Shown in pieces: positions 1,769 through 4,505 of a stretch of 64,000 bases of DNA. Position numbers and translations under genes: made by a program. The number at the start of each line of letters is the position of its first letter. Position 1 is the stretch's first letter. The stretch is from positions 434,001 to 498,000 of the forward strand of contig NZ_VOHA01000004.1 of the NCBI RefSeq assembly GCF_007859315.1. Reading direction: 5' to 3'. The notes under the pieces were generated by a model that was given only the letters and a program-made list of their open reading frames with translations, ran no database searches and was not told the DNA's origin. Source of the stretch: Reyranella sp. CPCC 100927 (lineage in GTDB: Bacteria > Pseudomonadota > Alphaproteobacteria > Reyranellales > Reyranellaceae).

Positions 1769-2563
1769 TCACCGTTCGGCATCCAGTCGCGCACCGAGCG
1801 CCGCCGCGAAGCGATCGAGATCACTCAGCGGCAGATCGGCGATGGCATGGAACGTGAAGCCGGCGTGCGACCAGCGACGCAGTCCGAACCCATCGCGCAC
1901 CTCGCCTTGCGTCGTCAGGCTCCCTCTGTCCGGCCACAGGAAGAGGGCGATGACGTGCCGGTTACGCCGGTAGACCAGCACGGCGGTCTTGCGGCCGTCG
2001 ATCACGTCGACCCTGCCACCGACCAGCGGGAAGCCATCGGTGGTGAGGTCGTGAACCGGCGGTGCGTAGGCGACACGGCCGCCAAACCAGGGCTTCACTG
2101 TGTGGCGATCCGATGATGCGACTTCCACCAGCCGCTCGCCTGACGTGACGCGCAGATAGCCGTCGACGACCTCGCGGGTGGCATCGGACTCCCCCGGCAG
2201 CGGCAGATAGCGGCCCACGGCCCAGCCGGCAGTCAAGGCCACCACGACCGTGGCCGCCCACCGCAGAACGTCTCGCCGGGCCGGGGTGGGGCGCGGCGCC
2301 ATGGAGACCACCGTGGGCGCATCATCATGGGGGGCCAGGGTGTCCAGGATGGCAGTCCGAAGAGCGGCGGGCGCGCGCGGCGATGGTGCTTGCCGCAGGG
2401 CATCGCGCAACAGCCGCGCCTCATCCAGGCGCTGCTGGCAGTGCGGGCAACGGGGCAGGGCGCTCTCGATGGCAATCGACATGTCGGCCGACAACTCGCC
2501 ATCGGCATAGGCGTCGATCAGGCTTTCGCAGGTGGCGCAGTCCATCTCGGTCATCGTCGTCAT
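1769..2563 (-). CDS. Membrane anti-sigma factor for the adjacent ECF sigma
   Basis: The 264-residue protein overlaps the sigma gene stop by four bases (ATGA), so the two are made together. Residues 1-60 form a small zinc-finger anti-sigma domain, one helix spans about residues 100-120 (VLRWAATVVVALTAGWAVG), and the remaining 140 residues would be periplasmic. The usual H-x3-C-x2-C zinc motif is altered: Ala35 stands where His is expected before Cys39 and Cys42, while Cys9, Cys12 and His41 offer other ligands. Known members hold the sigma factor at the membrane until a stress signal releases it. The target genes are probably the divergent metallophosphoesterase operon. Confidence 0.85.
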   Translation of the reverse strand: MTTMTEMDCATCESLIDAYADGELSADMSIAIESALPRCPHCQQRLDEARLLRDALRQAPSPRAPAALRTAILDTLAPHDDAPTVVSMAPRPTPARRDVLRWAATVVVALTAGWAVGRYLPLPGESDATREVVDGYLRVTSGERLVEVASSDRHTVKPWFGGRVAYAPPVHDLTTDGFPLVGGRVDVIDGRKTAVLVYRRNRHVIALFLWPDRGSLTTQGEVRDGFGLRRWSHAGFTFHAIADLPLSDLDRFAAALGARLDAER

Positions 2564-3108
2564 CCACCATCCGACTGGCGGCGGATCTCCGCCGCCAGGG
2601 CCGCCCGCGCCCGCGCCAGGCGCGACATCACCGTGCCGATCGGCACATCGAGAATTGTTGCGATGCGCTTGTAGGAGAGGTCCTCGATCTCGCGCAGCAC
2701 CAGCACCTCCCGGGCCGCTTGCGGCAGGGCATCGAGCGCGGCCATCACCGAGCGGCGGGCGTCAGCTTCCAGTAAGGTCTTCTCCGGCGTGGCGGGGATG
2801 GCGGCCAGCGCCTCGGTGCCCGCCAGAACCACGTCGAGCGCCGCATCGGCATGGTCCAGGTCCGCCATGGGGGCGCCACGTGCCTGCCGGTGCGACATGA
2901 ACGTGTTGCGCACGATGCTCAGCAGCCACGGCCGCGCGTCGGGGCCGCGGAACGTCTCGAAGTAGCGCCATGCCCGCAGGAACGCCTCCTGCGTGACGTC
3001 CTGCGCCTCGCTGTCGTCGCGCGTCAACCGCCGCGCAAAGCCGTAGGCGGCATCGAGGTGCGGTAGCGCCAGGGCGGCAAAACGCTGTGCCCGGACCTTG
3101 TCAGTCAT
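2560..3108 (-). CDS. ECF (sigma-70 family) sigma factor
   Basis: The 182 residues fit an extracytoplasmic function sigma factor. Region 2 is seen as DVTQEAFLRAWRYFETFRG near residue 37 with WLLSIVRNTFMSHRQ after it, and region 4 as VLVLREIEDLSYKRIA and VPIGTVMSRLARARAAL near the end. It is followed in the same operon by its membrane anti-sigma factor. Its own promoter carries GGAATAA, 14 bases, CGGTCT, the same pattern as the divergent promoter at 3177-3203, so it likely activates both itself and the metallophosphoesterase-cupredoxin pair. Confidence 0.92.
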   Translation of the reverse strand: MTDKVRAQRFAALALPHLDAAYGFARRLTRDDSEAQDVTQEAFLRAWRYFETFRGPDARPWLLSIVRNTFMSHRQARGAPMADLDHADAALDVVLAGTEALAAIPATPEKTLLEADARRSVMAALDALPQAAREVLVLREIEDLSYKRIATILDVPIGTVMSRLARARAALAAEIRRQSDGG

Positions 3109-3134
3109 GCCGTCGTACGCGGAACATCGATCCT

Positions 3135-3161
3135 AGACCGGACCGTGCGCCTTTTTATTCC
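3135..3161 (-). promoter_or_regulatory. Likely ECF-dependent promoter of the sigma gene
   Basis: On the minus strand GGAATAA (3161-3155) is followed after exactly 14 bases by CGGTCT (3140-3135), 26 bases before the sigma start codon. GGAA-type minus-35 boxes are usual for ECF sigma factors. The same two boxes with the same spacing occur on the other strand at 3177-3203. I read this as the autoregulated promoter; assignment is by pattern, not by mapped transcripts. Confidence 0.65.
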
Positions 3162-3176
3162 ATCGCGGTGCCATCA

Positions 3177-3203
3177 GGAATAACCGGCTTCCGGTGACGG
3201 TAT
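3177..3203 (+). promoter_or_regulatory. Likely ECF-dependent promoter of the metallophosphoesterase-cupredoxin pair
   Basis: GGAATAA (3177-3183), a 14-base spacer and CGGTAT (3198-3203) match the divergent minus-strand promoter in both boxes and in spacing. It ends 43 bases before the ATG of the metallophosphoesterase. I noticed no third copy in this window, which suggests the two promoters respond to the same sigma factor encoded next door. Confidence 0.65.
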
Positions 3204-3246
3204 CCCCTGCGCGTCTCCCAACCCAGACCGGACGCCAGGAGGGTGC

Positions 3247-4131
3247 ATGACCACGGGTTACGACCGCCGCGAATTCCTCAGGCTCGGCGGCATCGCCGGC
3301 GTTGCCTTTGCCTCGGGTTTGTTCTCGACCGCCGGCGCGCGGGCACAGGCCGCCGATTTCCATTTCGTGCAGTTTTCCGACACGCATTGGGGTTATGCCG
3401 GTGCTGCCAATCCGGACGCCGCGCACACGCTGGAAAAGGCGGTCGCGACGGTCAACGGCCTGGCGTCACAACCTGACTTCATCGTCTTCACCGGCGATCT
3501 GACACATACGACGGATGATCCCAAGGAACGCCGGACGCGATTGGCGCGGTTCAAGGAGATCGTTTCGGCCCTGCGCGTCAAGGACGTCCGGTTCATGCCG
3601 GGCGAGCATGACGCGGCGCTCGATCGCGGCGAAGCCTACAAGGAATTCTTCGGCGCGCCGTATTACACGTTCGATCACAAGGGCGTGCATTTCATCGCAC
3701 TCGACAACGTCTCCGACCCGGCCGCCAAGGTCGGTGACGAACAATTGGCCTGGCTGGCCGCCGACCTCAAGCAGCGCAAGCCCGACGACCGCATTGTCGT
3801 GCTGACACACCGCCCGCTGTTCGATCTCTATCCGCAATGGGATTGGACAACGGCAGACGGCGCCAAGGTCATGGAATTGCTGATGCCGTATCGCAACGTG
3901 GTGGTGTTCTACGGCCACATCCATCAGGAACACCATCACACCACGGGCCACATCCAGCACCACGCGGCGCAGTCGCTGATCTTCCCGCTGCCACAGGCAG
4001 GATCGCAGCCCAAACGCGGCCCGCTGCCCTTCGATGCGGCCAATCCTTATCGCGGCCTGGGAACGCGCGACGTCGGCGTCAGCCCGGCCAGCGGCTACGG
4101 CATCAAAGAACTGCCGGTCGCCAAGGCCTGA
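3247..4131 (+). CDS. Tat-exported metallophosphoesterase
   Basis: The 294-residue protein begins with a twin-arginine signal (DRREFLRLGG, residues 6-15, then a hydrophobic run to ARAQA), so the folded enzyme is probably moved to the periplasm. The calcineurin-like metal site is visible: D45-x-H47 (SDTHWG), GDLTH near 83, GEHD near 121 in place of the usual GNHD, TH near 187 and GHIHQ near 226. The substrate may be a phosphodiester or phosphomonoester but is unknown. The stop overlaps the ATG of the cupredoxin gene, so both are one operon, probably driven by the neighbouring ECF sigma. Confidence 0.85.
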   Translation: MTTGYDRREFLRLGGIAGVAFASGLFSTAGARAQAADFHFVQFSDTHWGYAGAANPDAAHTLEKAVATVNGLASQPDFIVFTGDLTHTTDDPKERRTRLARFKEIVSALRVKDVRFMPGEHDAALDRGEAYKEFFGAPYYTFDHKGVHFIALDNVSDPAAKVGDEQLAWLAADLKQRKPDDRIVVLTHRPLFDLYPQWDWTTADGAKVMELLMPYRNVVVFYGHIHQEHHHTTGHIQHHAAQSLIFPLPQAGSQPKRGPLPFDAANPYRGLGTRDVGVSPASGYGIKELPVAKA

Positions 4132-4505
4132 TGATGATCGATCGTAGAACCACGCTGCGGTGGCTCATCGCGGCGCCGGCGGCGGCCGGTCTTGTCGTGG
4201 CCGCCGCCGGTTTGGCGGCCGAACCTGCCGCGCGCGAAATCCACATTTCGGCCAAGCGGTTCGAGTACACGCCATCAACCATCACCGTGAAACTGGGTGA
4301 GTCCGTCGTGCTGCTCCTGACCGCCGAGGATCGTATTCATGGCTTCAAGATGCCTGACTTCAACCTGCGTGCCGATATCGTGCCCGGTGTGACGACCACC
4401 GTGCGGCTGACGCCAGATCGTGCCGGCAAGTTCAGCTATTTCTGTGACGTCTTCTGTGGCGATGGCCATGAGGACATGGAAGGCACCATGATCGTCGTTG
4501 CGTAG
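4131..4505 (+). CDS. Small exported cupredoxin with a complete CuA-type site
   Basis: The 124-residue protein has a Tat-like or Sec signal (DRRTTLRWLIAAP to about residue 30) and one cupredoxin domain. The metal ligands of the binuclear CuA centre of cytochrome oxidase subunit II are all in register: His70 (EDRIHGFKMP), then Cys105-x3-Cys109-x3-His113-x2-Met116. There are no transmembrane helices beyond the signal, so this is a stand-alone periplasmic CuA protein rather than an oxidase subunit. Its ATG overlaps the stop of the metallophosphoesterase. It may transfer electrons or carry copper; a role in oxidase assembly is possible but not shown. A convergent TetR gene follows. Confidence 0.85.
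   Translation: MMIDRRTTLRWLIAAPAAAGLVVAAAGLAAEPAAREIHISAKRFEYTPSTITVKLGESVVLLLTAEDRIHGFKMPDFNLRADIVPGVTTTVRLTPDRAGKFSYFCDVFCGDGHEDMEGTMIVVA

Follow-up and report, generated by a model that had tools for sequence, protein, structure and literature searches.

Two elements of the same make lie back to back between the divergent genes of an ECF sigma factor and a metallophosphoesterase in a stretch of 64,000 nucleotides from Reyranella sp. CPCC 100927 (the window, in which position 1 is the first letter), and they raise the question of which regulator reads them and how many genes it serves. We consider it highly probable that they are back-to-back promoters read by the adjacent, stress-responsive ECF sigma factor, and that the regulon is local.

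The paired elements and their uniqueness in the genome

The initial annotation had described twin copies of GGAATAA-N14-CGGTMT, and we found both to be correct to the base (3135-3161 on the minus strand and 3177-3203 on the plus strand, Table 1), with 14-base spacers that differ between the copies and with 15 bases between the opposing -35 boxes, which face each other. The features of ECF-type promoters were present, namely a GGAA-type -35, a -10 with GT, a spacing of about 16 and a position upstream of the own gene. The further claim that conservation is confined to the promoter elements is true of the two window copies and fails for the Reyranella-type relatives, whose sigma-side promoter carries a conserved extension, GGAATAAAATCGAC...CGGTATTG, absent from the window organism. 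A near-identical 12-base direct repeat, CCYAGACCGGAC, at 3132-3143 and 3222-3233 (90 bases apart), flanks the promoter pair, with one copy overlying the minus-strand -10 box, and is possibly due to chance.

Table 1. Genes and predicted promoter boxes of the locus (positions in the window)
Feature	Position	Strand	Remarks
Anti-sigma factor, 264 aa	1769..2563	-	PF13490 (zf-HC2-like N-terminal domain); start overlaps sigma stop
ECF sigma factor, 182 aa, regions 2 and 4_2	2560..3108	-	Pfam PF04542, PF08281; NCBIfam TIGR02937 (sigma70-ECF) over cut-off
Intergenic region, both divergent promoters	3109..3246	.	138 bp; Shine-Dalgarno AGGAGG precedes phosphoesterase
-10 CGGTCT, sigma/anti-sigma promoter	3135..3140	-	26 bases upstream of sigma ATG
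-35 GGAATAA, sigma/anti-sigma promoter	3155..3161	-	Pattern scan
-35 GGAATAA, phosphoesterase/cupredoxin promoter	3177..3183	+	Pattern scan
-10 CGGTAT, phosphoesterase/cupredoxin promoter	3198..3203	+	43 bases upstream of ATG
Metallophosphoesterase, 294 aa, twin-arginine signal DRREFLRLGG	3247..4131	+	PF00149
CuA cupredoxin, 124 aa, CxxxCxxxHxxM	4131..4505	+	PF13473, PF00116; start overlaps phosphoesterase stop

Genome scans were done by pattern. GGAATAA-N14-CGGTMT had two matches in the window and none in 100 dinucleotide shuffles, and the scan bore out the remark that the window holds no third copy. Throughout the whole assembly (9,084,006 bases) the exact pattern was limited to the same two sites, so that the genome-wide search returned just the proposed target set, and the pattern read backwards gave 0 matches in this assembly. 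The motif might have been equally common at random positions; in this 9.08 Mb genome it is unique. Patterns with one mismatch had 37 matches in the window's genome versus 16 for the backwards control; most of these lie within long reading frames, and they were discarded as targets. A copy with a spacing of 17 (G000:C45:289284) has its end two bases short of an ATG, which would put the start inside the gene, and was attributed to chance. Exact, one-mismatch and spacing-variant patterns yielded no further convincing target in this genome. Chance likeness of two AT-rich words in a GC-rich region has nothing in its favour except that the sites in one genome are few; against it stand the zero expectation from the shuffles, the uniqueness in 9 Mb and the conservation across dozens of loci described below. 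It is refuted by that uniqueness and by a held-out matrix scan, and we give this explanation virtually no weight.

Conservation among relatives of the same order

Phosphoesterase orthologues were present in 36 of 76 genomes of the order. Throughout the 30 order loci examined the sigma gene adjoins the phosphoesterase gene divergently, the anti-sigma and cupredoxin genes occur in nearly all, and the promoter element is found on at least one side in every locus (30/30) and on both sides in most, with an almost invariant GGAAT-N16-CGG spacing. The pattern GGAATAW-N14-CGGTAK had 53 exact matches in the 36 locus-bearing genomes plus one genome without the locus, and 44 of these were at the locus (in 34 of the 36 locus-bearing genomes), while the backwards control had 2 matches in total in the same genome set. 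Nine exact matches in the 36 genomes were off the locus; five of them were rejected as targets since they lie inside genes (G008, G010, G042, G058, G071), one since it ends 8 bases from an ATG (G043), and one since no convincing gene follows it (G037:C20).

These counts also bear on whether the promoters, although real, are read mainly by one or more other ECF sigma factors, with the adjacent sigma factor a passenger that has a different main target. With about 32 matches to sigma region 4 in the genome, the sites could be read or shared by another ECF; ECF26 members of S. meliloti overlap in promoter use (PMC3511301, PMC10880074), and at one locus, L150, the motif persists although the 4.3 kb upstream contain no sigma gene. 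However, the motif is nearly absent from same-order genomes that lack the locus (2 exact matches in 34 genomes), which would be unexpected if it served another resident ECF, and the sigma gene and the motif stay together over great distance, rearranged loci included. We regard reading by another ECF as quite unlikely.

Conservation in distant and rearranged loci

The wider set comprised the best 80 loci when 84,980 species genomes were scanned with phosphoesterase peptides and not with the motif, and included Alpha-, Beta- and Gammaproteobacteria; the family is patchy, being present in 9 of 289 evenly drawn alphaproteobacterial genomes. A related sigma gene was nearby in 79 of the 80 phosphoesterase loci and nearly always divergent. 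When a position matrix trained on 26 close loci (-35 and -10 columns only) was applied to a held-out set of 47 divergent loci, whose sigma factors were for the most part 42-54% identical, the score exceeded the 99% shuffle threshold on the phosphoesterase side in 47/47 and on the sigma side in 41/47, and a low-scoring sigma-side -10 (GAGTCT) occurred in 6/47. GGAAT was present in the divergent loci on the phosphoesterase side in 73/73 and on the sigma side in 72/73; the loci are not independent (several are from Duganella, Massilia and Rugamonas), so the counts overstate the number of separate events. The sigma-side -10 of relatives was mostly CGGTAT, and also CGGTCT, CAGTCT or GAGTCT. Both promoters were present in Cupriavidus and Caballeronia replicons and in L232 and L233, which are among the most distant loci (phosphoesterase identity 36%) and in which the -35 boxes nearly abut. 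In Gemmatirosa (L157, another phylum) the divergent genes are kept and no such element was found.

Some loci have a different gene order. As a natural REARRANGEMENTS, L115, L123 and L126 carry phosphoesterase-cupredoxin-sigma-anti-sigma in one direction with a single element at the operon head, and L234 has the order sigma-anti-sigma-phosphoesterase with its sole element preceding sigma. Such retention of the motif at the operon head is expected if the element is the promoter that heads each operon of the regulon. Instead, a conventional repressor or activator might bind the paired boxes as a two-site operator, as their inverted arrangement is conserved in a short intergenic region and the -35 boxes of L232 and L233 lie so close; but across loci the two GGAATAA boxes stand anywhere between 4 and more than 100 bases apart, without a fixed helical phase, -35 and -10 keep a constant spacing of 16 counted from GGAAT, the sigma/anti-sigma genes are the only conserved regulator genes, and the one-operon loci make do with single copies. 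An operator is, in our judgement, very improbable, and conserved phasing between the two promoters was likewise ruled out by the varying inter-box distances. The promoter reading is supported by the held-out matrix scan, the genome-wide counts, the rearranged loci and the homologues at 36% identity.

Regulon size and additions

The initial annotation had guessed a target set of four, the sigma factor itself, its anti-sigma factor, a Tat-exported phosphoesterase and a CuA cupredoxin, and the genome-wide search supports this as the probable set in the window organism. The set appears larger in a few genomes (cytochrome c, small secreted protein), and the cupredoxin of distant loci is not of the CuA type. 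We presume that the regulon is essentially local, with four genes here, occasional additions in relatives and very probably little else.

The remaining two off-locus matches, in G035 and G037, stand before the genes of small secreted proteins, orthologues with 55% identity and conserved cysteines, whose ATG is 65 and 55 bases past the -10, respectively. Their spacers are unlike, which makes the boxes better conserved than the sequence around them. This protein is likely an accessory target in G035 and G037 only; it was rejected as a general third target because its many paralogues (up to 15 per genome, without a Pfam match) have no motif except in these two genomes.

The small secreted cysteine proteins of this family that have an upstream element in two relatives are encoded at L160:1750-2007 (-) and L162:1205-1459 (-). 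In three betaproteobacterial-type loci, a class I c-type cytochrome gene lies between the promoter region and the phosphoesterase, directly before the latter (L143:4608-4982, L144:4574-4963, L146:2836-3225).

Sigma factor and anti-sigma factor

The sigma factor has regions 2 and 4 and a length close to the about 180 aa expected of an ECF sigma factor, and a cognate anti-sigma gene lies beside it here and in nearly all relatives. The anti-sigma factor has one hydrophobic helix (about residues 99-116), an N-domain that resembles the anti-sigma domains of ChrR, RslA and MucA by structure comparison, and a periplasmic domain similar to the C-terminal domain of RseB/MucB (model mean pLDDT 80). The similarity of the model to RseB has a Z of 9.1 and an rmsd of 3.0 over 95 residues at a sequence identity of about 12%, and Foldseek alone gives the periplasmic domain an E of only about 0.002.

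The window protein has Ala at the His position of the canonical zinc anti-sigma motif HxxxCxxC; the zinc site is CxxC...CxxC with no His in the Reyranella-type relatives, and it has no Cys in several betaproteobacterial relatives. Zinc or thiol sensing by the N-domain is thus unlikely as a general signal, as the ligands are not conserved. The most conserved stretch of the protein is periplasmic (SSDxHTVKPWF...PPVxDL...GFPLxGGRxD), and since this is conserved and the zinc ligands of the N-domain vary or are missing by lineage, the signal is more likely sensed outside the cytoplasm.

Phosphoesterase and cupredoxin

Both target proteins have Tat-type signals. The phosphoesterase contains the blocks DxH, GD, H and GHxH, and in the third metal-binding block GEHD (window 3601-3612) replaces the canonical GNH[DE], with Glu for Asn; GEHD is found in 79/80 relatives and aligns with the GNHD of Rv0805, and all relatives that were aligned have Glu at this place. 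On these residues its membership of the PF00149 superfamily stands and canonical phosphoesterase activity is uncertain. Its structure model was poor (mean pLDDT 66) and was set aside, and its PADLOC matches were weak and partial.

The cupredoxin has CxxxCxxxHxxM with an upstream His, as expected of a CuA protein (motif in 73/77 relatives), and its closest solved structures are the CuA domains of cytochrome oxidase subunit II. In the distant loci L155, L156, L157 and L232-L235 a type-1-like (amicyanin- or plastocyanin-like) cupredoxin takes its place, and in L231 a TPR protein does. An exchanged copper centre with the rest kept constant points to a role in electron transfer rather than copper storage.

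The phosphoesterase-like protein might also be a periplasmic redox enzyme and not a phosphatase, which would act on some substrate at a two-metal centre with Glu for the usual Asn and pass electrons to the neighbouring copper protein. We consider this rather unlikely. If true, it would explain the CuA, type-1-like or added cytochrome c partners under constant sigma control, and it would parallel the sulfite dehydrogenase systems under ECF26 control.

Proposed mechanism

The elements, their conservation, the gene order and the near absence of other copies are read directly from the sequences, and we strongly infer that this particular sigma factor recognizes both promoters. For the release mechanism, the periplasmic signal, the electron-transfer role and the enzyme function we infer the following. 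At rest the membrane-spanning anti-sigma factor would hold the sigma factor; a periplasmic signal, sensed by the RseB-like outer domain of the anti-sigma factor, would free it, and the freed sigma factor would fire both promoters. The minus promoter would drive sigma and anti-sigma, giving positive autoregulation with a built-in shut-off, and the plus promoter would drive the Tat-exported metallophosphoesterase-like enzyme and its copper electron-carrier-like partner.

Comparison with known systems

A search of the open-access literature turned up no paper in which an ECF controls a metallophosphoesterase-cupredoxin pair. The promoter motif agrees with the published ECF26 consensus (-35 GGAATA, -10 GT; PMC6180224), and the layout of the anti-sigma factor (N-domain, one membrane helix, periplasmic C-domain) agrees with the ECF26 COG5662 type. 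The sigma factor is 34% identical to RpoE6, the sole ECF26 member compared, with a profile score of 106 bits, and the anti-sigma profile matches the protein beside RpoE6 in its N-terminal part alone; on this comparison with one reference member, the sigma factor is a possible member of ECF26.

In the ECF26 systems RpoE1 and RpoE4 of Sinorhizobium meliloti and SigE of Starkeya novella (sulfite response), the anti-sigma factor adjoins the sigma factor and the regulon is small and local (PMC3511301, PMC6180224, PMC6527743). The present locus is similar in its adjacent anti-sigma gene, its small local regulon and its -35 of GGAAT(A), and, as in these systems, the targets are an exported enzyme with a cytochrome and a cupredoxin (sorT-sorU-azu2 in theirs). 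However, the -10 given for RpoE4 and SigE is CGTC and here it is CGGTMT, and the enzyme there is a sulfite dehydrogenase and here a metallophosphoesterase. Like RpoE-RseA-RseB of E. coli and AlgU-MucA-MucB of Pseudomonas, the locus has a periplasmic domain of the RseB C-terminal fold, but here one protein combines the anti-sigma factor and the RseB-like part, and the regulon is tiny. The enzyme shares the calcineurin-like superfamily and the metal blocks with Rv0805-type cyclic nucleotide phosphodiesterases and purple acid phosphatases, and differs from them in being Tat-exported, in its conserved Glu for the Asn of GNHD in Rv0805 and in being encoded nearly always beside a cupredoxin gene. 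The cupredoxin has the CxxxCxxxHxxM and upstream His of the CuA domain of cytochrome c oxidase subunit II, whereas here it is a free-standing exported protein, replaced in distant loci by type-1-like cupredoxins.

The switch is of a type ordinary for ECF sigma factors, while the module that it controls appears undescribed, and the regulatory sites of this module are unusually well conserved. Kept whole across genera that include Reyranella, Vineibacter, Herbaspirillum, Massilia and Sulfuriferula, the module links an uncharacterised family of exported metallophosphoesterases to copper electron carriers, and it offers a promoter and a regulon of an ECF module that can be tested directly, in which the regulon is so small that signal and function should be approachable.
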